The notes under the pieces are model-generated. The model had not been told where the DNA came from. It was given only the letters and a program-made list of their open reading frames with translations, and ran no database searches. The position numbers were made by a program, and so were the translations under genes. A DNA stretch of 64,000 nucleotides from Mucilaginibacter rubeus (lineage in GTDB: Bacteria > Bacteroidota > Bacteroidia > Sphingobacteriales > Sphingobacteriaceae): contig NZ_BMKD01000003.1 in NCBI RefSeq assembly GCF_014643835.1, positions 620,001 to 684,000 on the forward strand, read 5' to 3'. Positions 34,985 to 50,061 of the stretch are shown one piece after another. Position 1 is the stretch's first letter; each line of letters starts with the position of its first letter.

Positions 34985-35812
34985 TCATTGCGCCGAGCGC
35001 GAAACTTCATCCCAGGCTTCCCAGGTGGCAATGCGCTCCGTATAGGCAGCTTTCAGGCCGGTGAGGTTATGGCTACCAAGGTTAAAACGTAGCGGCGGGT
35101 TTTCAGAGTCCACCACTTTGAACAGCGCCTGCGGGGTAGCGGCCGGGTTGCCTCTCTCCATGCCTTTTAGTCCCTCCATGAATTTCGCTTTAAAATCGTG
35201 ATAGACCGGATTTCCTTCGAAAACCTTCGGGATCTGATCGCTACCAAATTCTGTTGCATATGCGCCCGGTTCAATGATGGTGACTTTGATACCGAACTGC
35301 GCCACTTCCAGGGCCAGGCTTTCATGGATCGCTTCAAACGCCCATTTGGACGAGCAGTAATAGCCCAGGATCGGCATGGCCAGATGCCCCAGGTTACTGG
35401 AAGTACCCAAAATATGTCCGTAACCTTGCCCACGCAGCAGCGGCAAAGCCGCCTGGATAACACTAACAGGGCCTATCACGTTGGTTTCGTACAGGGCGCG
35501 GATATCGCCGGCACTGCCGTCCTCGATCGTCCCGATCAGTGGATACCCCGCGTTATTCAACACGATGTCCAACCGGCCAAAATGCTCATGCGCTTTATTT
35601 ACGACTTCTTTAACCTGAGCAGGGTTAGTTACGTCGAGCTCCAGTGCCAATACCCGATCGCCATATTGTTCTTTTAATGCAGCGATGCTGCTCAGATCGC
35701 GGGCCGTCGCGGCCACCTGATCTCCGCGCTCCAATGCCGCTTCTGTCCATATACGTCCCAGGCCGCGCGAAGCGCCAGTGATGAACCATATTTTATTCGT
35801 TTGCTGTGTCAT
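34985..35812 (-). CDS. Short-chain dehydrogenase/reductase
   Basis: A 275-residue classical SDR from ATG 35812 (TQQTNKIWFITGASRGLG). The 13 residues before it in frame are not typical and are excluded. The cofactor motif TGASRGLG, the LNNAGYP motif and the active-site Y-C-S-S-K (in ILGYYCSSKWAFEA) with the preceding Ser are intact. A basic residue after the glycine motif (ARD at the second strand) favours NADP(H). It is cytosolic. It is followed by the AraC gene with little or no gap. The substrate is unknown; AraC-SDR pairs in Bacteroidota usually act on aldehydes or ketones. Confidence 0.9.
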   Translation of the reverse strand: MTQQTNKIWFITGASRGLGRIWTEAALERGDQVAATARDLSSIAALKEQYGDRVLALELDVTNPAQVKEVVNKAHEHFGRLDIVLNNAGYPLIGTIEDGSAGDIRALYETNVIGPVSVIQAALPLLRGQGYGHILGTSSNLGHLAMPILGYYCSSKWAFEAIHESLALEVAQFGIKVTIIEPGAYATEFGSDQIPKVFEGNPVYHDFKAKFMEGLKGMERGNPAATPQALFKVVDSENPPLRFNLGSHNLTGLKAAYTERIATWEAWDEVSRSAQ

Positions 35813-36022
35813 ATTATATTTTATTTGATGAAAGCAAAGTTCGGGGAACAAGCCTTTTGCTTTGTAGCCTAATTACGGTTCTTTGTAGGCTGATCTCTGT
35901 ATTAGTTCAGGTAATCCGGGACGTAGCCAGAAGTATCTCAAAAAAACGCCGGGACATCTTTACTTTATTTATAATTATTATATAATTTCTATAGAATTAG
36001 TAGTATTTATCAAATCTTTTTT

Positions 36023-36030
36023 TACATTTG
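36023..36030 (+). promoter_or_regulatory. -7 box for the cysteine-rich leader and sulfatase-maturation operon
   Basis: TACATTTG is an exact match to TAnnTTTG. A transcript starting near 36036 would carry about 40 bases before the leader ATG at 36078. The region upstream is very AT-rich and includes the perfect palindrome TTCTATAGAA (35987-35996), a possible regulator site. No good -33 TTG was seen. Confidence 0.6.
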
Positions 36031-36077
36031 CTTCAGAAAATTAATCACAATAATTAAATCACTTAAAAGCACCCACC

Positions 36078-36173
36078 ATGCAACCCGAACTTTTACCTAA
36101 ATACGGCTTTGCTAATCATCAGTTAAATACTGCTGCTTTTACTTCTTGTTGTTATTCTTGTTGCTGCTGTTAA
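36078..36173 (+). CDS. Cysteine-rich 31-residue leader peptide
   Basis: A short ORF starts ATG 36078 and ends TAA 36171-36173. The first 21 residues are unremarkable (MQPELLPKYG start). The tail is TSCCYSCCCC, with six Cys in the last eight codons, using TGT and TGC. It has no signal peptide or membrane segment. It sits behind an exact -7 box and just ahead of a terminator-like hairpin. Consecutive regulatory codons at the end of a short peptide before a hairpin are the design of amino-acid attenuators such as trp and his leaders. Cys-rich leader peptides upstream of sulfur genes are known in Actinobacteria. A metal-binding small protein is the alternative. The likely role is sensing Cys-tRNA supply to control the operon that follows. 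Confidence 0.7.
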   Translation: MQPELLPKYGFANHQLNTAAFTSCCYSCCCC

Positions 36174-36240
36174 GGCTACGTCACAAGGGGTAATCCCTCC
36201 TCCATAATCGTGCGTTGATCGCACGGTACTCAATTTTTCA
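36174..36240 (+). terminator. Putative cysteine-responsive attenuator
   Basis: CGTGCG (36209-36214) and CGCACG (36220-36225) form a perfect stem with a TTGAT loop, extendable to 8 bp, and a TTTTT run follows at 36234-36238. Right after the leader stop codon, ACG-T-CAC (36178-36184) can pair with GTGCGT (36210-36215) with one bulged base. That competes with the terminator stem. A ribosome at the stop codon would cover the first segment and allow termination. A ribosome stalled on the Cys codons would leave it free. A small AGGG/CCCT hairpin lies between. The T-run is 8 bases from the stem, so the terminator is not ideal. Confidence 0.55.
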
Positions 36241-36258
36241 ATTCATTACATTATTTAC

Positions 36259-36298
36259 CAGGCATTGCTGCTTTATGCGGATTGCTATGCAACGCCTG
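36259..36298 (+). promoter_or_regulatory. Second leader hairpin
   Basis: CAGGC-A-TTGC (36259-36268) pairs with GCAA-C-GCCTG (36289-36298), 9 pairs with one A-C mismatch. It ends 29 bases before the first structural gene of the operon and has no T-run. It may stabilise the transcript or take part in leader folding. Confidence 0.45.
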
Positions 36299-36327
36299 CA
36301 TTGTTAATCACTTAATATAAGTTCATT

Positions 36328-36504
36328 ATGACCATTAACGACGTTTCCCTGATTGGGAAAAAGGTGTTGGTAGGCGTTATAGTAACCCTCATACCTTTTG
36401 TTATCATTTTTGGCGGGCTGTGGCTTGGCCGTAAGCTATTGGAAAAAGGCTCTGCAACTAAAACAGCGCAAATTGTTCAACCTCAAAACAGTACACCTTT
36501 ATGA
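36328..36504 (+). CDS. Small single-pass membrane protein, 58 residues
   Basis: The ORF runs from ATG 36328 to TGA 36502-36504. One strongly hydrophobic segment is at residues about 13-34 (VLVGVIVTLIPFVIIFGGLW), followed by a basic GRKLLEK and a polar Gln/Thr-rich tail. Its stop overlaps the next start in ATGA, which supports translation. It is the first structural gene behind the attenuator. Together with the following 65-residue protein it could be a membrane partner of the hydroxylase or of the maturation factor. No family was recognised. Confidence 0.65.
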   Translation: MTINDVSLIGKKVLVGVIVTLIPFVIIFGGLWLGRKLLEKGSATKTAQIVQPQNSTPL

Positions 36505-36698
36505 AACTGGATCAATCAACCAAAAAGCAGATTATCAAAAACGCTTCATTGAGCCTGCTGCTTTATATCCTGCCTATCGCGCTCATGTTTGGCACTTTCG
36601 CCATCACCGGTCAGCGCCCATGGGAAAAGAAGCAACATCAGCATAAACAGGAAAACACCATAAAAACTAAAACATCAAACTCGCCAGACAATGATTGA
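36501..36698 (+). CDS. Small single-pass membrane protein, 65 residues
   Basis: A basic N-terminus (MKLDQSTKKQIIK) is followed by a hydrophobic helix (ASLSLLLYILPIALMFGTFA) and a charged, His/Lys/Gln-rich tail. The start overlaps the stop of the previous small gene (ATGA) and the end overlaps the start of the hydroxylase gene by 8 bases. Translation of the three is therefore probably coupled. The basic start suggests an N-in orientation with the tail outside. No family was recognised; a structural or anchoring role beside the membrane hydroxylase is only a guess from gene order. Confidence 0.7.
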   Translation: MKLDQSTKKQIIKNASLSLLLYILPIALMFGTFAITGQRPWEKKQHQHKQENTIKTKTSNSPDND

Positions 36699-37656
36699 TC
36701 AGATAAAGCAAATAATAGAAAACCTTAACGGCTATGGCTTTTCCGTTTTGGTATTGGTACTCGGTGTATTGGAATTTTCGTTCGGCCTTTATAAAAAGCG
36801 CTGGAACAAAAATGAAAAATGGGTGGATATTGCCTGCTTTACCATCCCTAAACTGGTGGTAAAACCAATGGTGGCCTATTACGGATTAAAAGTGCTGCCG
36901 GTTGTATTACCAGGATTAAAGAACACCTTTGATTGGGTTCCATTTTTCTGGGGATTCATCATCATCGCGGTGGCCGATGATCTTACCCAATACTGGTATC
37001 ATCGTTTGCACCATCAGGTGCCCTGGCTATGGCGTTTTCACCGTACACACCACTCGGCATCATACATGGGTATGGCAATGGCCAGCAGGCAAAATATCAT
37101 TTATACCATCTTTTTTTCGCAAACCTATTTAACCACAGCTTTGGTTTACCTTGGTTTGGGGATCCCTGCGGTAGTGGTGAAAGGTATTAAAGGTACCATT
37201 ACCACACTGGCGCATTCAAGCATTCCATGGGATAAACCATTTTATCAGTATAAAATATTACACCCCCTGGCCTGGATCCTTGAACGTACCATTTCAACGC
37301 CTGCAACGCATCATGCGCACCATGCAGCTACTACCGATGACGGGGTAGGCTATTATAAAGGTAATTTTGGTAATATGTTCTTTTGGTGGGACATTATTTT
37401 CGGTACGGCTCATATCTCGCGTCAGTATCCTAAAGCTTATGGTATTTCGCATTATGAAGGCGACCAATGGTACGCACAGCTGGCCTGGCCTTTATTTAAA
37501 TCAAAGATACCCGGAAGTGAACTTGCAGCCGGTGGCCCGATGATTAGAGAAGATGTGCCTTTGCAGCCTCATCACTTATACAGACCCGATGTTGCAGTGC
37601 AGCCCGAAGCTGAACAGGTTGACACAGCATTTCAGTTACAGCCTGTAAAAGCGTAA
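36691..37656 (+). CDS. Sterol desaturase/fatty acid hydroxylase-superfamily membrane protein
   Basis: A 321-residue integral membrane protein with the three His clusters that bind two irons: H104-RL-HH108, H117-RT-HH121 and HHAHH (207-211). Hydrophobic segments lie at about 17-33, 50-75, 84-98 and 136-165. Members hydroxylate or desaturate lipids with O2. The gene is locked into the operon by an 8-base overlap upstream and a 1-base TAATG overlap with the sulfatase-maturation gene downstream. Its link to sulfatases is unclear. Hydroxylation of a sulfated or sulfonated lipid is one thought, since sulfonolipids occur in Bacteroidota, but nothing in the sequence proves it. Confidence 0.85.
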   Translation: MIDQIKQIIENLNGYGFSVLVLVLGVLEFSFGLYKKRWNKNEKWVDIACFTIPKLVVKPMVAYYGLKVLPVVLPGLKNTFDWVPFFWGFIIIAVADDLTQYWYHRLHHQVPWLWRFHRTHHSASYMGMAMASRQNIIYTIFFSQTYLTTALVYLGLGIPAVVVKGIKGTITTLAHSSIPWDKPFYQYKILHPLAWILERTISTPATHHAHHAATTDDGVGYYKGNFGNMFFWWDIIFGTAHISRQYPKAYGISHYEGDQWYAQLAWPLFKSKIPGSELAAGGPMIREDVPLQPHHLYRPDVAVQPEAEQVDTAFQLQPVKA

Positions 37657-38798
37657 TGAAAAAGATTGTACTTATACTTTTTAGTACCGTATGGTTAGCA
37701 TCATGTAAACAACCGGCGAAACCAGTGGCGGGTATTGCGGTTGCCACGGTTCCCGGTGCTAAAAAGAAACTTTGCTGCGAATCAAATATCCCCAACAGGT
37801 TTAAAGCAGCGGGGTTAAGCGGTGCGGCGCTTGCTCTGCCCGATACGGGTAATACCCAAACCAGCCATGCGGGGATGGTTTGGGTACCGGCCGGAACTTT
37901 CAGAATGGGAGCCGATAACCAGCAGGCTGAACCTGATGAATACCCCAAACACGACGTAAGTGTCGATGGTTTTTGGATAGATAAAACCGAGGTTACCAAT
38001 GCCCAGTTCGAAAAATTTGTGAAAGCCACAGGCTATATCACCACAGCCGAGCGTAAGCCCGACTGGAACGAGCTCAAAAAGCAAATGCCCCCGGGTACCG
38101 AAAAGCCTGCTGATAGTTTGCTGGTCGCGGCCTCGCTGATATTTGTGCCGGCAAATAAACCGGTTAACCTGAACGATTACAGCCAATGGTGGGCGTGGAA
38201 AACAGGTGCCAGCTGGAAACACCCACATGGGCCGGGCAGCGATATCAAGGGTAAAGATAATTACCCGGTAGTGCAGGTGTCATGGTACGATGCCGTAGCT
38301 TACAGCAAATGGGCAGGCAAACGTTTACCAACTGAAGCCGAATGGGAGCGGGCCGCGAGAGGCGGACTGGAAGATAAGATCTATCCCTGGGGAAATGAGA
38401 AGGTGAATGAGGGGCTGCCCAAAGCAAATACCTGGGAGGGGAGTTTTCCCTATAAAAACACCCAACGTGATCATTATTATTACCTGGCCCCGGTTAGCTC
38501 GTTTGCACCCAATGGTTACGGCCTGTATGATATGGCCGGTAATGTATGGGAGTGGTGTGCCGATTTGTATAATAATAACTATTACAAAACAGTAAACAAC
38601 CCGGGGGGAGTTAAAAACCCCAAAGGCGCTTCAAAATCATATGACCCGGACGAGCCTTATGCCATTAAAAGGGTAGTGCGGGGCGGCTCATTTTTGTGTA
38701 ACGACAGCTACTGCTCCGGTTACCGCGTATCGCGCCGGATGAAAACTACCGAAGATAGCGGTATGGAGCACCTTGGTTTCCGTTGTGTAAGCAATTAA
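37656..38798 (+). CDS. Formylglycine-generating enzyme (SUMF1-type), lipoprotein
   Basis: A 380-residue FGE-sulfatase domain protein with a lipoprotein signal (LASC, C17). Conserved blocks are MVWVPAGTFRMGADNQ, FWIDKTEVTNAQFEKFV, YPVVQVSWYDAVAYSKWAGK with RLPTEAEWE, GLYDMAGNVWEWCADLY and VVRGGSFLCNDSYC. Cys348 and Cys353 in SFLCNDSYC match the copper-binding catalytic pair of human FGE (SYMCHRSYC). It is therefore probably a true oxygen-dependent enzyme and not an EgtB/PvdO-type relative. It converts the Cys of the C-x-P-S/T-R motif in exported sulfatases to formylglycine. Lipid anchoring puts it in the periplasm, where the three sulfatases encoded downstream fold. The start overlaps the hydroxylase stop. 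Confidence 0.92.
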   Translation: MKKIVLILFSTVWLASCKQPAKPVAGIAVATVPGAKKKLCCESNIPNRFKAAGLSGAALALPDTGNTQTSHAGMVWVPAGTFRMGADNQQAEPDEYPKHDVSVDGFWIDKTEVTNAQFEKFVKATGYITTAERKPDWNELKKQMPPGTEKPADSLLVAASLIFVPANKPVNLNDYSQWWAWKTGASWKHPHGPGSDIKGKDNYPVVQVSWYDAVAYSKWAGKRLPTEAEWERAARGGLEDKIYPWGNEKVNEGLPKANTWEGSFPYKNTQRDHYYYLAPVSSFAPNGYGLYDMAGNVWEWCADLYNNNYYKTVNNPGGVKNPKGASKSYDPDEPYAIKRVVRGGSFLCNDSYCSGYRVSRRMKTTEDSGMEHLGFRCVSN

Positions 38799-38990: not shown

Positions 38991-39167
38991 ATGCAAAATA
39001 TTGCAAATGCAGGGGTTGGCTATGCGTTGCCTTCTCCGCTGCACGCAGCATCCTTTACGCTGCAAATTATTGAGGATGCCTTTCATCCGCAGCAATTATA
39101 CATGTCGTTTAATACGGTTACTGATCAGTTGTCCGGTTTTTCATCTTCTAAAAACCTGTCGACATGA
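38991..39167 (+). CDS. Possible 58-residue ORF coupled to the SusC gene
   Basis: An ORF starts ATG 38991 (MQNIANAGVGYALPSPLHAA) and its TGA overlaps the SusC start in ATGA at 39164-39167. It has no signal peptide, no membrane helix and no Cys. The overlap suggests translational coupling, as with the small genes upstream of the hydroxylase. No family was recognised and an accidental ORF is possible. Confidence 0.4.
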   Translation: MQNIANAGVGYALPSPLHAASFTLQIIEDAFHPQQLYMSFNTVTDQLSGFSSSKNLST

Positions 39168-42100
39168 AAAAACTACTATTAATCCCATTTCTGTTGCTTA
39201 TTGCTTTTCCGTTGTTAACCATCGCGCAGCAAACGCAGCCTACCATCAATTCGCACCTGGTTGGCCGTGTAATTGACAGCACAACCCGCGAGCCATTACC
39301 CGGTGCCGTGGTCAAGATCCAGGGTACCACGCACGTAGTTTCAACCGATATTGAAGGTAAATTCAGCTTTATAACCGGCCAGAAATTTCCATACAAACTC
39401 ATTATCACCTTCACCGGCTACGAAAAGAAAGAGTTTATTGCCGATGGCAGCCCTGTTGAAATTAAACTTAAAGACGCTCAAACCCAGCTAAACCAGGTGG
39501 TTGTGGTGGGTTACGGTTCCCAAAAACGTAAGGATATCACCGGTTCGGTAGCCTCGGTACCTGCGCTTGCTTTGAAGCAGCCGGTTCCTTCGCTCGACAG
39601 GGCCTTGCAGGGCTCTGTTTCGGGCATCCAGGTAACACAGGCTACCGGGCAGCCTGGGGCAGGCGTAACCGTGCAGATCCGCGGTGTAAACTCTATCAAC
39701 GCTGTTGCCGAACCATTGTATATTATTGATGGTTTTCCTACTTCAAACAGCAACTCACTTACCGATGCCGGTGTAACCAATGGCCCAAAGATCAATCCGC
39801 TGGCATCTATCAATACCTCGGACATTGAAAGCATTGAGGTTTTGAAAGATGCTTCGGCCACGGCTATTTATGGTACACGCGGCGCCAATGGTGTAATCAT
39901 TATCACCACTAAAAAAGGTAAAGCTGGCGTATCATCTATCAATTATGATGGCAGCTTCGGTAAACAGGAGGTAATTAAAAACTTGTCGCTGCTTAACACT
40001 TCTCAATGGGAAGCTTTGCGTAACGATGCTTTGGTAAACACCGGTAAAACCGCCCAAACAGAAGCGCAGCTTAATCCATACAATGCCAATACCGACTGGC
40101 AAGGTGCCGCTTTCCGTAAAGGGACTTCACAAAATCATAGTCTTTCGATATTTTCAGGTACCGAGCGTACAAGACTTGCCTTTTCCGGCAATTACTTTAA
40201 ACAGGACGGGATCTTGCAAAATACCAACTTTGAGCGTTACGCAGGCAGGGTAAATGTAGAGCACGATTATAACGATAAGTTTAAGATCTCTTCATTCATT
40301 ACCGGTAGCCGCACCACCGCGCAAATTGCACCCCAGGGTGTCGTTCCTGCCATTTTGCTAATGACGCCAACCACCCCGGTTTACAATAGCGATGGTTCAT
40401 TCTTTATCAAAAACGTATTTGAGGGCACCTACGGAAACCCGATCAATACGCTATATAACCAAACCAATACAACTACCACAAGCCGCATTTTAGGCAATAT
40501 CGCAGGTGATTATAAGATCACCGAAAACCTTACCGCAAGAGTATTGGCCGGTGTGGATATCATCGACAATAAACAAAACCGCTACCTGCCGTCTACCGTT
40601 TATGAGGGATCAGGTTATTCGGGCCTTGGCGAGGTTGGTACGCTAAACTCATTTAACTGGCTTAATGAAAACACGCTTACCTATAACAAAAAGTTTGGTA
40701 AACATTCATTAAATGTGCTGGCAGGGTTTACCCAGCAGCAGTTTAAGGCCGAAGGCGCCATAACAGGTTCATCGGGCTTTGTTAGTGATTACGATACCTT
40801 TAACAACCTCGGTTCGGGCAGTGTTACTTCGGTATCGGGCAGTGGGTTTGCTATAGCGCCATCTTCATCGTCAAATACCTGGGCTTTAAAATCATACCTG
40901 GGTAGGATCAATTATGGTTTTAACAGCAAATACCTGTTAACGTTAACCTTGCGTGCCGATGGTTCATCGAAGTTTGCACCGGGGCATCAATGGGCATCAT
41001 TCCCATCGGCTGCTATTGCCTGGAATGCATCGAGCGAAGATTTCCTGAAAAATGTAACGGCTATCAGCCAGTTGAAACTGAGGTTGAGTGCGGGACAAAC
41101 AGGTAACAGCGATATCCCGGCTTACCAGTCGTACTCGCAGTTAGGTTATTATCGTTACAATTTTGGTAACTCAACAGTTGCTGGTTTCGCGCCAAATAGT
41201 TTATACAATCCCAACCTAACCTGGGAAAAAACAAGCCAGTATGATTTTGGTTTCGACCTGGGCTTGTTTAAAGATAGGGTTACTGTAACAGCCGATGTAT
41301 ACTACAAGAAAACAACCAACCTGTTGTTGTACCTGCCTTTACCGGCAACAAGCGGTTTAACCATCATTACCAACACTGCTATTACCAACCCGCAGCAGTA
41401 TGAAAATGTAGGTTCGGTGCAAAACAAGGGTTTTGAATTGGGTATTAACTCGCGCAATATTGTTGGCAGTTTTGTATGGAACACCAACCTGGTATTTGCA
41501 GTTAACCGTAATAAAGTGCTGAGCCTTGGCGGTAACGGCGTTAACCAGTTCATCCCAGATTCGTCGCTGCCATCCATCATTAAAGTTGGCGAACCTATAG
41601 GTTCATTTATCGGTTACAAAACCAATGGCCTCATCCAGGCCGGCGGACCGGTACTTACCCCGGCTGCCAATACTTCGCCGGGAGGTCAAAACTATCAGGA
41701 TATTAACGGCGATGGTAAAATAACACAAAGCGGCGACCGGGTAATTCTTGGTAACTCGCAGCCTAAATTTACCGGAGGTATCACTAACACTTTTGCCTAT
41801 AAAGGCTTTGACTTGAGTGTGTTTTTGCAAGGATCATATGGCAACAAGATCTACAATCAGCAAAGAGGTGTTTTGGAATTAGGAACAGGCTATACCAATG
41901 CTACAACTACCTTGCTAAACCGCTGGACGCCGACCAACACTAACACCGATGTACATAGCGCATACCAGGACCCTGCACCAACTATATCGGATAGATTTGT
42001 GGAGAATGGCTCATACCTGCGCCTTAAAAGCCTTGGTTTTGGTTACACTTTTCCGCAGTCGGTACTTTCCAGGTCGCCTATCAAGAAAGTCAGGATATAC

Positions 42101-42253
42101 CTGAGTGCCCAAAACCTGGCAACCTGGACCAAATATACCGGTTACGACCCTGAAGTAAGCAGCAACGAGCAATCGGCCATTACATCAGGAGTTGATAACG
42201 GTGCTTACCCGAACAATAAATCTGTAATAGTTGGCATAGGGCTTACCCTGTAA
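39164..42253 (+). CDS. SusC-like TonB-dependent receptor of the sulfatase locus
   Basis: A 1029-residue outer-membrane transporter. Signal peptide (to about residue 22, LTIAQ), carboxypeptidase-like domain (HLVGRVIDSTTREPLPGAVV), plug beginning NQVVVVGYGSQKRKDITGSV, then the barrel. IEVLKDASATAIYGTRGANG is the strongly conserved SusC plug motif. It pairs with the SusD protein encoded 26 bases later. Its place between the maturation factor and the sulfatases implies import of a sulfated glycan or another sulfate ester. The TonB energy system is not in this window. Confidence 0.93.
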   Translation: MKKLLLIPFLLLIAFPLLTIAQQTQPTINSHLVGRVIDSTTREPLPGAVVKIQGTTHVVSTDIEGKFSFITGQKFPYKLIITFTGYEKKEFIADGSPVEIKLKDAQTQLNQVVVVGYGSQKRKDITGSVASVPALALKQPVPSLDRALQGSVSGIQVTQATGQPGAGVTVQIRGVNSINAVAEPLYIIDGFPTSNSNSLTDAGVTNGPKINPLASINTSDIESIEVLKDASATAIYGTRGANGVIIITTKKGKAGVSSINYDGSFGKQEVIKNLSLLNTSQWEALRNDALVNTGKTAQTEAQLNPYNANTDWQGAAFRKGTSQNHSLSIFSGTERTRLAFSGNYFKQDGILQNTNFERYAGRVNVEHDYNDKFKISSFITGSRTTAQIAPQGVVPAILLMTPTTPVYNSDGSFFIKNVFEGTYGNPINTLYNQTNTTTTSRILGNIAGDYKITENLTARVLAGVDIIDNKQNRYLPSTVYEGSGYSGLGEVGTLNSFNWLNENTLTYNKKFGKHSLNVLAGFTQQQFKAEGAITGSSGFVSDYDTFNNLGSGSVTSVSGSGFAIAPSSSSNTWALKSYLGRINYGFNSKYLLTLTLRADGSSKFAPGHQWASFPSAAIAWNASSEDFLKNVTAISQLKLRLSAGQTGNSDIPAYQSYSQLGYYRYNFGNSTVAGFAPNSLYNPNLTWEKTSQYDFGFDLGLFKDRVTVTADVYYKKTTNLLLYLPLPATSGLTIITNTAITNPQQYENVGSVQNKGFELGINSRNIVGSFVWNTNLVFAVNRNKVLSLGGNGVNQFIPDSSLPSIIKVGEPIGSFIGYKTNGLIQAGGPVLTPAANTSPGGQNYQDINGDGKITQSGDRVILGNSQPKFTGGITNTFAYKGFDLSVFLQGSYGNKIYNQQRGVLELGTGYTNATTTLLNRWTPTNTNTDVHSAYQDPAPTISDRFVENGSYLRLKSLGFGYTFPQSVLSRSPIKKVRIYLSAQNLATWTKYTGYDPEVSSNEQSAITSGVDNGAYPNNKSVIVGIGLTL

Positions 42254-42278: not shown

Positions 42279-43835
42279 ATGAAGACGAAAAATATTAAAT
42301 ACCTTATTATACTGGTTGCTTTTGCCGCTGTTTCATGCGCCAAACTTAAGGAAGACCCTCGGTCGTTCATCCCGGCAAGCCAGTTTTATAAAACCCAGGC
42401 AGACGCCGTGGCAGCAGTCACAGCTGCTTATTCGTTATTGAACGCCGGGGCAAATAGTGTTCAAACACCGTACAACACCCTTTTTAACACGGGTATGAAT
42501 TTTATGGGCGATGATGAAGGTCCCGGCCCCGGTGCTACCAATGCCGACGTACGCTCACAGTCTGTATTAGGCCATTCAGCTTCCGGCCTAAGGATCCTGC
42601 AGATCTGGCAACAGCATTATGCAGCTATTAAAAAGGCTAATATCGCCATTGATACCATTCCTGATATCAAATTTGATGCTACGCTAAATAAAAGGCTTGT
42701 TGCCGAGGCGAAGTTTTTGAGGGCATTGTATTATTTTAATTTAGTGCGTTTGTATGGCGATGTGCCTCTGGTATTGCACGATCAAACATCAATTAATCTA
42801 TCTGATCTGCAAATTCAGAGAACAGCCGCGGCTACCGTTTATGCACAAATAGAAACCGATTTAACCAATGCTGCTGCCGATTTGCCAAATAACTATACCG
42901 GTCCGGATGTAGGCAGGGCTACAGCGGGTGCAGCCAACTCCTTACTGGCTAAGGTTTATCTTACCGAACGTAAATGGGATAAGGCCGTAGCGCAGGCAGA
43001 AGCTGTAATTAATGGCCCATACGGCTATGACCTGTTTGCCAACTATGCCGATGTGTTTTTGCCTGCGACCAAAAATGGAAAGGAGCATATTTTTTCGGCG
43101 CAGTTTAAATCAAACTCACAGGGACAGGGCAACAACCAGGCTCCGCGATCAATATTGAACGGTATCCCGGGTATAGTGGGCAGCTATGCCGATCAGGTGG
43201 TGTTTTACCCGGTGCCCGATGCTACCAAACCCGGCGGCGTAGATAAGTTTTTCAGCATTTATAAGTTGTATCCGGCCAATGATAAGCGTAAGCGGGTGAG
43301 TTTTGTAACGCGCTTTCAAAGTCCTGCAACTAATCTGTGGTATGGTAAGCTGAATGACGCTACTATTCCCAACGACTCTATCCCTTTCTTTAATAAATAT
43401 TATGATCCGGGCGTGGCATCTAACGAAGCCGAGTCGGGCGCCAATGTGCCTATCATCCGCTTTTCGGATGTATTGCTGATCCATGCTGAAGCAGAAAATG
43501 AATTAAACGGGCCAACTGCCAAAGCATATGCTTCTATCAACAGGGTGAGAAAACGTGCCGGGCTGGACGATCTTGCCGGGCTTGACCAGGCTTCATTTCG
43601 TAACGCGGTTTATTTAGAGCGTAGGCTGGAGTTTGTATTTGAATACCAGCGTTGGTTTGACTTGATCCGCGAGCGGGATGCTTCGGGCAATGGAATATTG
43701 GAGGCAAGCCTGCTTAAAGTTGGTAAAACCAATGTAAGCAAAGGCGCGGCAGGCAAATTTTACCTGTTCCCGATACCTCAGCAGGAAATTGATAACAGCA
43801 ATGGTAAGCTTACGCAAAACCCCGGCTGGCAGTAA
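42279..43835 (+). CDS. SusD/RagB-family lipoprotein of the sulfatase locus
   Basis: A 518-residue SusD-like surface lipoprotein. The signal ends in AVSC (Cys about 20). The N-terminal region has the family's SFIPASQFYKTQADAVAAVT segment. The C-terminal part has INRVRKRAGLDDL, YLERRLEFVFEYQRWFDLIR and FPIPQQEIDNSNGKLTQNPG, all classical. It binds substrate and caps the SusC-like channel. It is followed 90 bases later by the first sulfatase gene, without a visible terminator, so one long transcript is likely. Confidence 0.93.
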   Translation: MKTKNIKYLIILVAFAAVSCAKLKEDPRSFIPASQFYKTQADAVAAVTAAYSLLNAGANSVQTPYNTLFNTGMNFMGDDEGPGPGATNADVRSQSVLGHSASGLRILQIWQQHYAAIKKANIAIDTIPDIKFDATLNKRLVAEAKFLRALYYFNLVRLYGDVPLVLHDQTSINLSDLQIQRTAAATVYAQIETDLTNAAADLPNNYTGPDVGRATAGAANSLLAKVYLTERKWDKAVAQAEAVINGPYGYDLFANYADVFLPATKNGKEHIFSAQFKSNSQGQGNNQAPRSILNGIPGIVGSYADQVVFYPVPDATKPGGVDKFFSIYKLYPANDKRKRVSFVTRFQSPATNLWYGKLNDATIPNDSIPFFNKYYDPGVASNEAESGANVPIIRFSDVLLIHAEAENELNGPTAKAYASINRVRKRAGLDDLAGLDQASFRNAVYLERRLEFVFEYQRWFDLIRERDASGNGILEASLLKVGKTNVSKGAAGKFYLFPIPQQEIDNSNGKLTQNPGWQ

Positions 43836-43925: not shown

Positions 43926-45761
43926 ATGAAAACAAAGAAAATAACATTGTTCCTGTCGCTTGGCTTGCTTGCAGCATTTACAGCCAAAGCACAAAACGGA
44001 CAAACGCCGGTATTTGGCGGCACGGTGGGCAAAACGCTTGATGATTCGAAGGAGTGGTGGCCTGAGCCTCATAAAGCGCCCACCGGTGCGCCAAACGTAT
44101 TATGGATCATTTTAGATGATGTTGGCTTCGGCGCTACAAGCACTTTTGGCGGCGTCATCAAGACCCCCAATTTTGATACGCTGGCTAATAATGGCCTGCG
44201 TTATACTAATTTTCATACAGCAGGGATCTGCGCGCCGACGCGATCAGCTTTATTAACCGGACGTAACCATCATTATGTTCATGAAGGTGGTTTTTCGCAT
44301 GTTACCTTATCGGCAGGTTTTCCTGGTTATGATGGGCGCATTCCATCTGATAAGGGGACTATAGCGGAGATCTTGCGCGAAAATGGCTACAACACCTTCG
44401 CGGTTGGTAAATATGGTTTGACACCTGATGAAGATGCTACCGATGCAGGGCCGTTTGACCGCTGGCCTACGGGCAAAGGCTTTGACCATTTCTTTGGATT
44501 TTTAGGATCGGCAACAGATCAATACAAGCCTGATTTGGTTGAGGACAATGCCCACGTAACCCCGGATGGTCGCCACCTTACTGATCAGATCACCGATAAG
44601 GCCATTTTCTACCTTACACGCCAGCATAAAGTAGCTCCTGATAAACCATTCTTTTTATACTATGCGCCGGGTGCAACGCATTCGCCTCACCAGGTTGCGA
44701 AGGAGTGGAGCGACCTGTACAAAGGCCAGTTTGACAGCGGCTGGGACGATTTCAGGGAAAAGGTCATCGCAAGGCAAAAGCAATTGGGTATTATCCCGGC
44801 CTACGCCAAACTACCCGAGCGTAACTCACGCATCCCGGCCTGGAAATCACTACCAGATGCTGAGAAAAAACTGTATGCCCGCTTTATGGAAGTATATGCC
44901 GGCTATCTTACCTACACCGATCATGAGGTTGGCAGGCTCATCAATCACCTGAAACAAAGCGGTCAGCTGGATAATACGCTGGTGTTCGTGATCATTGGTG
45001 ATAACGGGGCCAGTAAAGAAGGGACGGTTCACGGTGTTATCAACCCTAAAAAGAACTCGGCTAAACTTGTTGCAGAAGACGCTTACCTAAAAACCAATAT
45101 TGAAGACATTGACGATATCGGTACACCACAGGCCAGCACTAACTACCCGTTAGGCTGGGCACAGGCGGCCAATACACCATTTAAATATTGGAAACAGGAT
45201 GCCAACTCCGAAGGAGGTACCCGTAACCCACTGATAGTTTACTATCCAAAAGGCATTAAAGACAAAGGCACTATCCGCACCCAATACGGGCATGTGATTG
45301 ACGTATTGCCTACTACATTGGAGTATACCGGTATTAAACTGCCCGAGTATATCCGCGGCATTAAGCAGGATACTTTGCAGGGCACTTCTTTGGTGTATTC
45401 ATTTGATCATCCCGAAGCAAAATCAAAACATGTTTTGCAGCACTACTACATTTTTGGGTCGAGATCGATTTATAGCGATGGCTGGAAAGCTGAAGCTGCA
45501 CACCACCCCGATAACGTAGAATTGGGCGATTTTAAAGTTGGCCAAAACGTGCCCGATAAAAGCTTTGATGAGGATACCTGGGAGTTATACAACCTGAATG
45601 AGGATTTCAACGAACGGGTTGACCTCGCCAAAAAATATCCTGAAAAGTTAAAGGAGCTGAAAGCAGTTTTTGAGGCACAAGCTCAAAAAAATAATCTGTA
45701 TCCATTTATCGACTGGTATGATGTTTATCACCAGCGCATCCACAAAAACTATAAAAAGTAA
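43926..45761 (+). CDS. Type I sulfatase (arylsulfatase family), exported
   Basis: A 611-residue alkaline-phosphatase-fold sulfatase with a signal peptide (ending FTAKAQ, about residue 23). The formylglycine site is C102-A-P-T-R106, followed by SALLTGRNHH; T in place of S is tolerated in the family. Metal ligands are seen in WIILDDVGFGA (Asp-Asp) and in VIIGDNGASKEG (Asp-Asn). It hydrolyses sulfate esters in the periplasm after activation by FGE. It is close in sequence to the next gene along nearly its whole length, so the two arose by tandem duplication. The substrate is unknown. Confidence 0.92.
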   Translation: MKTKKITLFLSLGLLAAFTAKAQNGQTPVFGGTVGKTLDDSKEWWPEPHKAPTGAPNVLWIILDDVGFGATSTFGGVIKTPNFDTLANNGLRYTNFHTAGICAPTRSALLTGRNHHYVHEGGFSHVTLSAGFPGYDGRIPSDKGTIAEILRENGYNTFAVGKYGLTPDEDATDAGPFDRWPTGKGFDHFFGFLGSATDQYKPDLVEDNAHVTPDGRHLTDQITDKAIFYLTRQHKVAPDKPFFLYYAPGATHSPHQVAKEWSDLYKGQFDSGWDDFREKVIARQKQLGIIPAYAKLPERNSRIPAWKSLPDAEKKLYARFMEVYAGYLTYTDHEVGRLINHLKQSGQLDNTLVFVIIGDNGASKEGTVHGVINPKKNSAKLVAEDAYLKTNIEDIDDIGTPQASTNYPLGWAQAANTPFKYWKQDANSEGGTRNPLIVYYPKGIKDKGTIRTQYGHVIDVLPTTLEYTGIKLPEYIRGIKQDTLQGTSLVYSFDHPEAKSKHVLQHYYIFGSRSIYSDGWKAEAAHHPDNVELGDFKVGQNVPDKSFDEDTWELYNLNEDFNERVDLAKKYPEKLKELKAVFEAQAQKNNLYPFIDWYDVYHQRIHKNYKK

Positions 45762-45853
45762 CCAATGATATAAAAGCTAAAAGCGGAAGGCACAAAGCCC
45801 AAAGCTATAGCTTTGATTGGATTAATTAAAAAACTTATATAACCATTACAATT

Positions 45854-47734
45854 ATGAAATCCGTTTATCAACGAATTGTCGCCATGTCGGCAATGGCCGT
45901 TGCGTTCAGCGCGCCTGTGGTTGCGCAATTGCCGCAGGTAAAGGTGACGCCGGCAAACATAGCGCCAATTGATCCCGCCAATTATAAAGGCGTAGAAGGC
46001 AAAACACTTGCCGAATCAAAAGAGTGGTGGAATAAACCACTCAAAGCGCCAAAAGGCGCTCCAAACATTGTTTGGATTTTGCTGGATGACGTAGGCTTCG
46101 GCGCCTCAGGAACCTTTGGTGGTTTGATCAGTACTCCAAATTTTGATACGCTGGCCAACAACGGCTTGCGTTATACCAATTTTCACACGGCTGGTATTTG
46201 CGCGCCAACACGTTCATCCCTGCTTACCGGGCGTAATCATCACTATGTACACATGGGTAACTTTGCCCACGCTTCAACCGCTGCCGGTTTCCCGGGATAT
46301 GATGGTCGCATTCCGCCTGATAAAGGCACCATTGCCGAGGCGCTTCGTGCTAACGGCTACAGCACCTTTGCTGTAGGTAAATGGGGAGTAACGCCTGATG
46401 AGGACACCACAGCCGTCGGTCCGTTTGACCGCTGGCCTACCGGTAAGGGTTTTGACCATCATTTCGGCTTCCTGGAATCGGCTACCGATCAGTATAACCC
46501 GCCGCATTTGGTAGAGGATAACTTCCATATCAAACCCGACGGCCGCAACCTGAACGAGCAGATCACTGATAAAGCCATTGCTTATATTGATGCTGCGCAC
46601 AAGGCAGCACCTGATCAACCTTTCTTTTTATACTATGCGCCGGGAGCAACCCATGCCCCGCACCAGGTGAGCCATGAATGGAGCGACCTGTATAAAGGCA
46701 AGTTTGATGAAGGCTGGGATGCTTACCGCCAAAAGGTATTTGAAAATCAAAAAAAAGCCGGTTACATTCCTGCTTATGCCAAACTGCCTGAGCGTAACGA
46801 GCGGATCCAGGCCTGGAACAGCCTGCCTGCCGATCAGAAAAAATTGTATGCCCGGTTTATGGAGGTTTATGCAGGATATCTGACTTACATCGATCACCAG
46901 GTTGGCCGCGTGATCAGCTATCTGAAAGCTTCGGGCCAGTTTGATAATACTTTGGTTTTTGTGATGATAGGGGATAACGGAGCGAGTAAGGAAGGAACTG
47001 TACATGGCGTTATCAATCCTAAAAACTCGGCAGCAACCACACCCGAGGCTGATTATATTAAAAAGAACGAAAGCGATTACGAAACCATTGGTACGCCAGA
47101 GGCTTCAACCAACTATCCTTTAGGCTGGGCACAGGCAGCTAATACACCGTTCAAATATTGGAAATCGGATGCTGACGCTGAGGGAGGCACCCATAACCCG
47201 CTGATAGTTTATTATCCAAAACTGATCACAGAAAAAGGCGGCATCCGTACGCAGTACAGCCATGTATCAGACGTATTTCCGACCACTATTGAGGCGGCCG
47301 GTTTAAAACTACCGGAGTACGTTAAGGGCATTAAGCAGGATACGTTGCAAGGTAAGTCATTCTTTAGCTCGTTCAACAATGCGCAGGCGAAAACATTGCA
47401 TACGCAGCAGTACTATTACATTTTCACTTCCCGCTCCATCTACAAAGATGGCTGGAAGGCCGAAGCCGCACACCGACCGGATAATGTGGACTTGCTGAAC
47501 TTTCCGAAAGAGAAAACCATCCCTGAGCGTAATTACGATAAGGATGTTTGGAAGCTTTACAACCTGAACGAGGATTTTAATGAGCGTGTTGATCTCGCCA
47601 AAAAATATCCTGAAAAATTAAAAGAGCTGAAAGATCTGTTTGACGCGGAAGCCAAAAAGAATCACATCTATCCTTTTATTGATCGTGATGATATCAATAA
47701 CAAACGGATCCACAAACTCGAAAACAATAATTAA
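45854..47734 (+). CDS. Type I sulfatase, tandem paralogue of the preceding gene
   Basis: A 626-residue exported sulfatase (signal to about residue 24, PVVAQ). The activation site is C116-A-P-T-R120 with SSLLTGRNHH. Metal-binding segments are WILLDDVGFGA and VMIGDNGASKEG. Long stretches match the previous sulfatase almost word for word, for instance NYPLGWAQAANTPFKYWK and LYNLNEDFNERVDLAKKYPE. The two differ most in the N-terminal 60 residues and in loops around residue 300, so different specificities are likely. The next gene starts 2 bases after its stop. Confidence 0.92.
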   Translation: MKSVYQRIVAMSAMAVAFSAPVVAQLPQVKVTPANIAPIDPANYKGVEGKTLAESKEWWNKPLKAPKGAPNIVWILLDDVGFGASGTFGGLISTPNFDTLANNGLRYTNFHTAGICAPTRSSLLTGRNHHYVHMGNFAHASTAAGFPGYDGRIPPDKGTIAEALRANGYSTFAVGKWGVTPDEDTTAVGPFDRWPTGKGFDHHFGFLESATDQYNPPHLVEDNFHIKPDGRNLNEQITDKAIAYIDAAHKAAPDQPFFLYYAPGATHAPHQVSHEWSDLYKGKFDEGWDAYRQKVFENQKKAGYIPAYAKLPERNERIQAWNSLPADQKKLYARFMEVYAGYLTYIDHQVGRVISYLKASGQFDNTLVFVMIGDNGASKEGTVHGVINPKNSAATTPEADYIKKNESDYETIGTPEASTNYPLGWAQAANTPFKYWKSDADAEGGTHNPLIVYYPKLITEKGGIRTQYSHVSDVFPTTIEAAGLKLPEYVKGIKQDTLQGKSFFSSFNNAQAKTLHTQQYYYIFTSRSIYKDGWKAEAAHRPDNVDLLNFPKEKTIPERNYDKDVWKLYNLNEDFNERVDLAKKYPEKLKELKDLFDAEAKKNHIYPFIDRDDINNKRIHKLENNN

Positions 47735-47736
47735 CT

Positions 47737-48468
47737 ATGAAAAACTTAAAAATTGTATTACTCGCCTTACTGGTAGTTTTTACCGGCGGGGTGAAAGCCC
47801 AATCACCTGCTTTATTATCGCTTGAAGCCTTTGCAGCCAAACTAAAACAGGCAAAAGAACCGCAGATCTTAGATGCCCGTTCGGCAGAAGAGTTTGCGCA
47901 AAATCATATTAAAGGTGCAGTAAATGTTGACGCAAAAGCAGCAGATTACCAGCAAAAACTGGATGGTTTGGATAAGGAAAAGCCGACATTTGTTTACTCA
48001 ATAGCTAATGGCCGTAGCACCGTACTTTCGCGCGAGCTGAGGGCTAAAGGATTTAAGGATGTAGAGGAATTGCCCGGTGGTTTAGCCAATTGGATAGGTT
48101 CGGGTTATCCTATCATTTCTACAACCAAAAAAGGCGTTTCACTATCAAAAGCCCAATTTGATGAGCTGGCGGCTTCATCACAATTAGTGTTGGTTGATTT
48201 TGGGTCGAAGTATTGCGGGGCCTGCAAAAAGCTGGTACCTGTATTGGATTCGCTCAAAGCAAATTCGGCTTTTACCCCTAAAGTGATCAGTATTGAAGTT
48301 TATGACAACACTGATCTGGCTAAAGAGCTAAAGGTAAATGTATTGCCAACGCTGGTGCTGTATAAAAACGGTAAGGAAGTTTGGAAAAAGCAGGGCTTTT
48401 CATCAACAACCCAGGTTATTGCCGAAACCGAACTGGCCAAAAGCGGATTGGCCGCCAATAATAAATAA
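47737..48468 (+). CDS. Exported rhodanese-like/thioredoxin fusion, rhodanese cysteine missing
   Basis: A 243-residue protein with a signal peptide (to about residue 21, GGVKAQ). Residues about 25-127 are a rhodanese-like domain (ILDARSAEEFAQNHIKGAVN, then GGLANWIGSGYPI). The loop that should carry the sulfur-binding Cys reads VYSIANGRS, with Ser88 at that place. Residues about 135-240 are a thioredoxin domain with the active site C160-G-A-C163 and the cis-Pro in NVLPTLVLY. The rhodanese half is thus probably a binding module, while the thioredoxin half can do redox work. Set between sulfatases and near FGE, it may keep FGE or sulfatase Cys residues reduced in the periplasm; this is inference. 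Confidence 0.87.
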   Translation: MKNLKIVLLALLVVFTGGVKAQSPALLSLEAFAAKLKQAKEPQILDARSAEEFAQNHIKGAVNVDAKAADYQQKLDGLDKEKPTFVYSIANGRSTVLSRELRAKGFKDVEELPGGLANWIGSGYPIISTTKKGVSLSKAQFDELAASSQLVLVDFGSKYCGACKKLVPVLDSLKANSAFTPKVISIEVYDNTDLAKELKVNVLPTLVLYKNGKEVWKKQGFSSTTQVIAETELAKSGLAANNK

Positions 48469-48477
48469 AACCGGAAC

Positions 48478-50061
48478 ATGATCAAATACATTGGCTACCT
48501 ACTGGTAGCTCTATTTTGCACGGGGCCTGTATTTGGGCAGGCCCCAAAGCAAAAGCCCAATATCGTTGTCATTTTGGCCGACGATATGGGCTTTTCTGAT
48601 ATAGGCTGCTTTGGCTCAGAGATCAACACGCCTAATATTGACAGACTTGCCCGGGAAGGTTTAAAAATGACCCAGTTTTATAACGCGGGCAGGTGCTGTC
48701 CGTCACGTGCGGCATTGCTTACCGGTTTGTATCCGCACCAGGCAGGTGTGGGTGATATGGTAAAATACAAAGGTTCTCCGGCATACCAGGGATACCTGAA
48801 TGAGCATAGCGCCACCATCGCCGAATTGCTGAAAGATGAGGCGGGTTATAACACCATCGTATCGGGTAAATGGCATGTTGGGTTGCAGCAATCTGCACTG
48901 GCCTATAACCGCGGGTTTGATCAATCATTCACCATGCTGAACAACGGGAGTAGTTATTTCAACTCGGCACCGCTTTATAATGATGGCAGCAAGATCACTT
49001 TTATGCTGAATGATAAAGAGATCACCCGCAGCGATACTTCAAAATATCTTACGCAAGCTATTACCGATTTCGCGATCAGATCATTGTATGAGATCAAAGA
49101 TCAGCAGAAACCATTCTTTATGTATGTAGCTTACAATGCCCCGCACTGGCCTATTCAGGCACTGCCACAGGATATTGCAAAGTTTAAAGGCCAATACCTT
49201 AAGGGCTGGGATGTTTTGCGGAAACAGCGGTATGTGAAACAATTAGCTACAGGTATCATTAAAAAACAATGGCAGCTATCAACCCGAGATAAACGTGCCC
49301 CTGCATGGGATTCATTATCTCCCGATGAAAAAGATAAATGGGATACCCGGATGGCTATTTATGCCGCCATGGTTTACCGCATGGATGCCTGCATAGGTGA
49401 GATTATGACCAAATTGAAGCAACTGGGAAAAGACAAAAATACCATTGTCCTTTTTGCATCAGACAATGGAGGCAGCGCCGATGAGGTTAAAAGCCTGGCA
49501 ACAGTAATACAAAAGAACGGCCCCCCCGGCTCCGTAAATTCGATCGACAGTTATGAGATACCCTGGGCAAATCTGAGCAATACACCATTTAAGTTGTTTA
49601 AACGCAACACACATGAAGGTGGTATAGCCACTCCGTTGATTGCCTGGTATCCGGGACATATCAAAGCCGGGACTACCAATAGCAGCACTGGCCACTTGAT
49701 CGATCTGATGCCTACCTGTTTGGAACTGGCCGGGGTAACTTATCCGGCTCTGTTTAAAAACAGGCGCCTTACAACATTGGCCGGTACCAGTTTGCTTAAT
49801 GTTTTTAAAGGCAAAGCTGCGTCAGGTAATGAAACTTTATTTTGGGAGCATGAAGGTAGCAGGGCCATAAGAAAAGGCCAATGGAAGCTCGTAGCCGAAC
49901 CGAAGCAACCCTGGGAGTTATATGATCTGGAAGCAGACCGATCTGAAACGAAGGACCTGGCTACGAAATATCGCGCAAAGGTTATTAAACTGGAAAAGGA
50001 ATACCTGGCCTGGGCAAATAAAGTTGGCGTGGTTGACTGGGAAACAATAAAGAATTTGTAA
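48478..50061 (+). CDS. Type I sulfatase, third of the locus
   Basis: A 527-residue exported sulfatase (signal ends GPVFGQ, about residue 21). The formylglycine site is C73-C-P-S-R77 followed by AALLTGLYPHQAG. The first Cys is the expected target; an additional Cys directly follows it. Metal-binding segments are VVILADDMGFSD and VLFASDNGGSAD. It is shorter and clearly from another subfamily than the two tandem sulfatases, nearer to the large arylsulfatase group that includes AtsA-like enzymes. It is the last gene before the tRNA-Gln that bounds the candidate island, 9 bases after the thioredoxin fusion. Confidence 0.92.
   Translation: MIKYIGYLLVALFCTGPVFGQAPKQKPNIVVILADDMGFSDIGCFGSEINTPNIDRLAREGLKMTQFYNAGRCCPSRAALLTGLYPHQAGVGDMVKYKGSPAYQGYLNEHSATIAELLKDEAGYNTIVSGKWHVGLQQSALAYNRGFDQSFTMLNNGSSYFNSAPLYNDGSKITFMLNDKEITRSDTSKYLTQAITDFAIRSLYEIKDQQKPFFMYVAYNAPHWPIQALPQDIAKFKGQYLKGWDVLRKQRYVKQLATGIIKKQWQLSTRDKRAPAWDSLSPDEKDKWDTRMAIYAAMVYRMDACIGEIMTKLKQLGKDKNTIVLFASDNGGSADEVKSLATVIQKNGPPGSVNSIDSYEIPWANLSNTPFKLFKRNTHEGGIATPLIAWYPGHIKAGTTNSSTGHLIDLMPTCLELAGVTYPALFKNRRLTTLAGTSLLNVFKGKAASGNETLFWEHEGSRAIRKGQWKLVAEPKQPWELYDLEADRSETKDLATKYRAKVIKLEKEYLAWANKVGVVDWETIKNL

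Follow-up and report, generated by a model that had tools for sequence, protein, structure and literature searches.

Candidate cysteine-sensing leader peptide genes before sulfur-related operons in Mucilaginibacter rubeus and other Bacteroidota

In this study, we have analyzed a 64,000-nucleotide stretch of Mucilaginibacter rubeus DNA (the window) and conclude, from comparison of related loci, that a 31-codon open reading frame (ORF) in front of a sulfatase operon is probably a cis-acting, cysteine-sensing leader peptide gene; we put the probability of this reading at roughly 0.8. A search of relatives for short ORFs with Cys runs before sulfur genes, which had been proposed with the original prediction for this locus, found them before sulfatase/SusCD, O-acetylhomoserine sulfhydrylase (MetY) and AhpC/TSA genes.

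We postulate that the leader would report the supply of cysteinyl-tRNA. When cysteine is plentiful, the ribosome would pass the Cys codons, stop and leave, and transcription would end short of the operon; under cysteine limitation, the ribosome would stall on the Cys run by the stop codon and transcription would reach the sulfatase operon. We infer three points: translation of the leader, stalling as its signal and an ON state at low cysteine. To our knowledge, little is known about how sulfur supply controls sulfatase operons in the Bacteroidota. If the proposal is true, sulfate-ester scavenging in this phylum, which contains major degraders of polysaccharides, would be tied to a direct readout of cysteine status, and many short genes would gain a testable function.

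The candidate leader gene and its operon

The original prediction described a -7 promoter box followed by a 31-codon ORF with six Cys in its final eight codons, and both were confirmed (Table 1). The box has what we take to be the consensus of the Bacteroidota type, and the leader tail, CCYSCCCC, lies directly 5' of the TAA stop codon. The first gene of the operon starts 154 nt after the leader stop. The FGE-like protein of the operon carries the Cys pair CNDSYC, presumably the FGE motif, and the sulfatase sites read CAPTR in the first two sulfatases and CCPSR in the third. An Rfam scan of positions 35800 to 36700 gave two matches only, both far below the gathering score, which we took as chance.

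Table 1. Positions of the candidate leader, its flanking elements and the downstream operon in the window
Feature	Position	Strand	Basis
Operator-like sequence CTATAGAATTAGTAG, 5' of the -7 box	35989..36003	+	Alignment of loci
-7 promoter box TACATTTG, Bacteroidota type	36023..36030	+	Read directly; 8/8 aligned loci
Leader ORF, 31 codons, MQPELLPKYGFANHQLNTAAFTSCCYSCCCC and stop	36078..36173	+	Read directly; compared across relatives
Control codons Cys-Cys-Tyr-Ser-Cys-Cys-Cys-Cys, adjoining the stop	36147..36170	+	Codon differences in 8 leaders
Post-stop stretch with AAGGGGTAATCCCTCC and a small AGGG/CCCT-type hairpin	36174..36206	+	Possible Rho loading region, inferred
Hairpin AUCGUGCG/CGCACGGU	36207..36227	+	Weak covariation, 9 close relatives
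Small ORF 1, 58 aa, at the head of the operon	36328..36504	+	7/7 syntenic loci; no Pfam match
Small ORF 2, 65 aa	36501..36698	+	7/7 syntenic loci; no Pfam match
Fatty-acid hydroxylase superfamily protein	36691..37656	+	PF04116, 81.9 bits
Formylglycine-generating-enzyme (FGE)-like protein, sulfatase-maturating	37656..38798	+	PF03781, 284.7 bits
SusC-like TonB-dependent receptor	39164..42253	+	PF07715, PF00593
SusD-like lipoprotein	42279..43835	+	Named from position and sequence
Two sulfatases, rhodanese-thioredoxin protein, third sulfatase	43926..50061	+	PF00884 (first sulfatase); PF00581, PF00085 (rhodanese-thioredoxin); second and third sulfatases named from sequence

An operator-like block, CTATAGAAWTAGTAG, is present in 8/8 aligned loci, as is the -7 box; in leader-bearing Pedobacter and Dyadobacter loci it is absent or occurs with two mismatches at best. 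With one mismatch it is also found before SAM-riboswitch/thioredoxin-like and SusC genes and near argininosuccinate-lyase-like and glutamate-kinase-like genes (named from sequence), and a reversed-pattern control was commoner than the motif in four of six genomes. Because of the one-mismatch sites near apparently non-sulfur genes and the commoner control, the motif was dropped as a candidate sulfur operator.

Recurrence of Cys-run leaders before sulfur genes

We searched 100 genomes (61 of them congeneric with the nearest genome, that genome counted) and obtained seven homologues of the leader, six with E values from 5e-15 to 2e-7 and the seventh with 0.036; other matches, all above 0.05, were taken as chance. 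All seven precede the same hydroxylase/FGE/SusCD/sulfatase operon in related Mucilaginibacter. Pairwise comparison of the window's leader and those of seven relatives (the eight 31-codon members among 14 leaders of the MQP/MHP type) gave 22 synonymous and 7 non-synonymous codon differences at Cys codons 28 to 31, and each of the 7 involves L122, which has Tyr there. The remaining codons gave 28 synonymous and 257 non-synonymous differences, with no synonymous excess outside Cys. A separate observation concerns the first dozen codons (36078-36113, MQPELLPKYGFA): because codons 2 to 12 contain zero silent changes in the eight aligned leaders, they look conserved as RNA or DNA, not as peptide, and may have a role at that level.

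Scanning the species-genome collection with a hydroxylase alignment gave 137 relatives, and the analysis covered the best 80. A short ATG-started ORF ending in CCC (plus at most one residue) lies within 1.2 kb upstream in 31 of these best 80 loci, which belong to Mucilaginibacter, Pedobacter, Dyadobacter and one Chitinophagaceae genome. Across genera, the peptides have little in common except the Cys tail. Loss of the Cys run in orthologous loci had been named as an outcome that would count against the original prediction; the run proved to be the most conserved part of otherwise unrelated peptides, and it is the Cys codons, more than the remaining sequence, that are kept.

When the best hit per locus was considered, SusC or SusD lay upstream of the hydroxylase module in 0/31 leader-bearing loci; among the 49 leaderless loci, SusD lay upstream in 40 and neither gene in 9. 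In most leaderless loci, the module therefore seems to sit inside an operon, and where that operon begins with SusC, a leader is predicted in front of SusC. The region before SusC was examined in 31 of the 40 loci with SusD upstream. In one group, a Cys-tail ORF was present 286 to 369 nt before SusC in all 21 orthologues, and five of eight additional SusC matches from these genomes also had a leader (26/29 in total), with roughly 230 to 270 nt between leader stop and SusC. In the other group (Chryseolinea, Larkinella, Spirosoma and others), a clear leader was found in 1 of 10 orthologues (Larkinella, L267) within the visible sequence of about 380 to 460 nt before SusC. The prediction thus holds in one group and, within the sequence visible, fails in the second. 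More Cys-tail leaders before SusC were noted at L059 and L102/L067 (..STCNTCCC, ..MQNMCCCC and ..MQNMHCYC), some of them behind an operator-like site or a SAM riboswitch.

The link to other sulfur genes came from sites with four Cys codons followed by a stop codon, which number 86 in six genomes; all were examined in two genomes, G001 (12 sites) and G018 (16 sites), and many in the other four. Three sites in each of the two genomes have an in-frame ATG, and the six ORFs precede the FGE operon, an O-acetylhomoserine sulfhydrylase gene (TIGR01326, above cut-off) or an AhpC/TSA gene (PF00578). A scan for six His codons, used as a positive control for run-type leaders, gave two sites in one of the six genomes.

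One rule was then applied to all sets: a short ATG-started ORF in which three or more of the last 8 residues are Cys. By this rule, a leader is present before 26/29 SusC genes, 27 of the 30 best-scoring MetY loci (matches in 119/151 genomes) and 27 of the 30 best-scoring AhpC/TSA loci (matches in 46/80 genomes), the last two sets being top-scoring loci and not a random draw; it is also present in 12 of 17 further MetY loci from the wider taxonomic class (matches in 19/119 genomes) and in 35/80 hydroxylase loci. Loci with no leader number 3/29, 3/30, 3/30 and 5/17 in the SusC, MetY, AhpC/TSA and wider-class sets, respectively. A looser rule gave 28/30 for AhpC/TSA and 13/17 for the wider class; the 9-residue ORF at L273 (MACPDCCTT) passes the loose rule and was left out of the leader count.

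ORFs of this length are common, which would favor the reading that the window's ORF arose by chance or was mis-called; as a general account, however, this reading is refuted by the shuffle, reverse-strand and other-residue controls, and we consider its probability negligible. Dinucleotide shuffles of the five sets satisfied the rule in 7/600, 4/340, 6/600, 1/580 and 22/1600 cases (40/3720 in sum, about 1%), a separate test of 26 SusC upstream regions gave 12/1300 shuffles, and the reverse strands gave 1/30, 0/17, 0/30, 0/29 and 1/80 (2/186). The same rule applied to 15 other residues was satisfied in 0 to 5 loci per set in four gene sets, except for Met in the AhpC/TSA set (8/30); in the longer hydroxylase regions, the other residues gave 0 to 22 of 80, with Leu highest, compared with 35/80 for Cys. 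The combination of a short ORF, a Cys run and a place at the head of a sulfur operon therefore recurs far more often than chance would allow.

In many MetY, AhpC/TSA and SusC leaders, Met is mixed into the Cys run (CMCMCCCC, MMCMCCCC), and such tails point to both sulfur amino acids. The link of the AhpC/TSA gene to the sulfur pathway is looser. Tandem Cys-tail ORFs (..MCCCC, ..YRVIYGLCRCC) were seen by the loose rule in 15/30 AhpC/TSA loci (L304-L324); at L304 they lie at -317 and -159 from the AhpC/TSA gene.

These comparisons bear on the suggestion that the peptide acts in trans as a Cys-rich binder of thiols or metals, for example as a copper sensor. A stretch of eight residues with six cysteines would suit that role, and FGE is a copper enzyme. 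However, apart from the Cys tail, the peptides found before this operon have little in common from genus to genus, their non-Cys codons are without excess synonymous change, and unrelated operons have their own peptides, two of them in tandem in half of the AhpC/TSA loci examined; we regard a role in trans as very improbable.

A second putative sensor lies next to the MetY leaders. The Rfam SAM-I aptamer was found in all 30 family sulfhydrylase loci scanned (20/20 and 10/10) and in 5 of the 7 wider-class loci scanned (of 17). In 27/27 leader-bearing loci (L206-L229 and L232-L234), the aptamer ends 6 to 11 nt before the first in-frame ATG of the leader; at L206, for example, it spans positions 1147-1257 and the ATG lies 7 nt further. 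Because the riboswitch abuts the leader start codon, SAM may gate translation of the Cys/Met leader, in which case SAM would be read first and Cys/Met charging second. The placement of a SAM-I riboswitch ending 6 to 11 nt before a leader start appears to be new, and the pair would form a composite sensor whose logic is testable with a single reporter.

Coupling of the leader to the operon

The step that couples the ribosome to the operon is the least certain part of our model. The original prediction proposed trp-type attenuation, in which the hairpin at 36207-36227 is an intrinsic terminator and a pairing of 36178-36184 with 36210-36215 is the antiterminator; a ribosome at the stop would mask 36178-36184 and one stalled at the Cys codons would free it. 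The competing pairing is present, with 6 bp and one bulged T, and so is the CGTGCG/CGCACG stem (36209-36214 with 36220-36225, extendable to 36207-36214/36220-36227). The T-run (TTTTT, 36234-36238), however, follows the extended stem after a 6-nt gap and is non-canonical, and the scan rule gave no terminator-like site within 130 nt downstream of the leader stop. The window thus shares with trp-type leaders a run of codons for one amino acid before the operon and an amino acid that fits the operon's pathway, and lacks a hairpin followed directly by a U-run. By the ribosome footprints that we assume, the geometry of the switch is possible.

Covariation of the two pairings, which had been put forward as a check on the original prediction, gave a mixed result in nine close relatives. 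In the window hairpin, 7 cells changed on both sides, compared with 4.0 in shuffles (24/500 shuffles reach 7), and 71.8% of cells were paired, compared with 67.7% (52/500 as high); the competing pairing was 66.7% paired, compared with 61.2% (54/500 as high). These values are weakly positive; the hairpin showed no excess over shuffles in pairs changed on both sides or in pair types (226 and 405 of 500). Both pairings lie above slid versions of themselves in percentage paired and covariation score, so a trp-type switch may still operate in this clade. The small AGGG/CCCT-type hairpin (88.9% paired in nine sequences, 83/500 shuffles as high) is not clearly above its shuffles or slid versions in the same sequences.

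Across the wider sets, the MetY leaders speak in favor of a trp-type switch, being strongly structured over the 50 nt that follow the stop (mean z of folding energy, -2.20; 14/27 at p<0.05). Terminator-like sites were found in 5/27 MetY leaders (9/135 shuffles) and in 18/33 hydroxylase-operon leaders (43/165 shuffles), many of them far from the stop; the sets were not dereplicated, and the 18 include five near-identical loci from Dyadobacter. For the hydroxylase set, the modestly low folding energy at +10 to +70 (z of -1.19) means little because the upstream control region is itself at -1.34, and SusC leaders show no excess structure after the stop (z of 0.37 and -0.25). We found no RNA structure common to all leader sets. 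Thus, terminator-like sites are not general, and of the attenuation model, the Cys-run leader before sulfur genes stands, whereas an intrinsic terminator with a competing antiterminator is weakly supported; we consider the trp-type switch rather unlikely. In 13 of the MetY loci L206-L219, a hairpin of the form ACACG-UUCCC-UUUUUC...CCUGAAAAA-UACGUG lies about 5 to 45 nt after the stop, and a second hairpin of varying sequence (GGAUA/UAUCC and others) comes next.

Our tentative preference, at somewhat less than even odds, is for Rho-dependent termination that would be blocked by a ribosome paused at the leader end; it is somewhat likelier than a switch between hairpins. The analogy is with tnaC of Escherichia coli, where tryptophan is sensed through an arrest peptide. 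As hypothesized here, the two would be alike in holding a ribosome at the leader end with a Rho site by the stop, but the signal would differ, being starvation at Cys codons in place of an arrest peptide. An untranslated C-rich, G-poor stretch fits termination of this kind because a paused ribosome could guard it. In the 60 nt after the stop, C exceeds G in 104/114 leaders (22/26, 26/27, 29/33 and 27/28), compared with 9/19 SusC regions without a leader and 16/26 regions further downstream; upstream of the leaders, the counts are 21/27, 16/33 and 5/28. The excess of C is suggestive of Rho, and with controls that are partly high, we do not claim it as proof.

A stalled ribosome might also act on the translation or stability of the downstream mRNA, by translational attenuation or protection of the 5' end. 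There is a tendency for the last Cys codons to base-pair with the sequence that directly follows the stop: a hairpin is visible by eye in many loci, and the fold-energy test favors it, with 7/27 hydroxylase-set and 3/26 MetY loci at p<0.05 (Fisher sums of 107.1 on 54 and 86.3 on 52 degrees of freedom, over loci that are not independent). The direct helix count hardly does so; its mean is above shuffles by 1.1 to 2.3 in four of five sets and below in the fifth, and 9/103 loci reach p<0.05. In the extracts of PMC13236596, Cys biosynthetic genes of Mycobacterium smegmatis are cited as being under translation attenuation, which also favors action on translation. However, the distance from leader stop to gene is long, both in the window and before SusC, and we judge this form of coupling to be unlikely.

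The broadest form of our proposal joins three elements: a wide Bacteroidota regulon of sulfur-amino-acid leaders, the gate of SAM and then Cys/Met before MetY, and termination by Rho and not by a hairpin. Such a regulon would cover sulfatase/SusCD uptake, homocysteine/cysteine synthesis and a peroxiredoxin-like gene, under fast-changing peptides with Cys (often Met) tails. That all three elements hold jointly is, in our view, an even bet.

Comparison with known leaders and further targets

Mycobacterial polycysteine leaderless short ORFs are reportedly cysteine-responsive attenuators, to judge by the title of a 2020 study from Canestrari and coworkers. They are like the present ORFs in being short, carrying Cys runs and preceding operons, and unlike them in being leaderless: if the TACATTTG promoter is used, the window's leader is not leaderless, since 47 nt separate the -7 box from its ATG.

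The actinobacterial Cys leaders were described in a 2005 paper that we take to be by Seliverstov. As given in the extracts of that paper (PMC1262725), candidate Cys-run leaders precede cys operons in Mycobacterium and Propionibacterium acnes and cbs in Bifidobacterium longum, and polyY motifs together with a Rho- or tna-like mechanism were suggested for them. The window's leader looks like these in its features, namely, a short ORF, a Cys run near the stop and no conserved terminator, and we claim no sequence relation. The differences lie in the phylum and in the genes controlled, which here are sulfatase/SusCD, O-acetylhomoserine sulfhydrylase and AhpC/TSA genes. In Rhodobacterales, the uORFC-8-2 motif before cysS, for which ribosome-mediated attenuation is proposed in PMC8632094, likewise has tandem Cys codons in an upstream ORF; there, however, two Cys codons lie in a stem with a 3' U-run, whereas here the Cys run is at the stop and a U-run terminator is not general.

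For the Bacteroidota themselves, the extracts of PMC9723704 report clues for leader-peptide attenuation of amino-acid operons in Flavobacterium psychrophilum, with cysteine not named there, and those of PMC7366714 report short ORFs reminiscent of leader peptides in Bacteroides thetaiotaomicron. A full-text literature search, covering few subscription papers and no preprints and hence weak as negative evidence, found no description of Cys-run leaders in this phylum. The original prediction had likewise regarded such leaders as known in the Actinobacteria and not described in the Bacteroidota, and in both respects it agrees with what that search and the extracts of PMC1262725 contain. The breadth of their use in the Bacteroidota appears to be new.

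Outside the sulfur sets, three ATG-started ORFs were found among the four-Cys sites examined in the other four genomes of the six (L089, L343 and L339). The ORFs at L089 and L343 lie opposite other long reading frames. At L339 (G023:C15), the ORF MRMPFARRVMVCCCCC, followed by a stop codon, lies 31 nt upstream of a gene for a PhyH-like dioxygenase (named from sequence; distance to its longest ATG-started frame), which is a possible further target.
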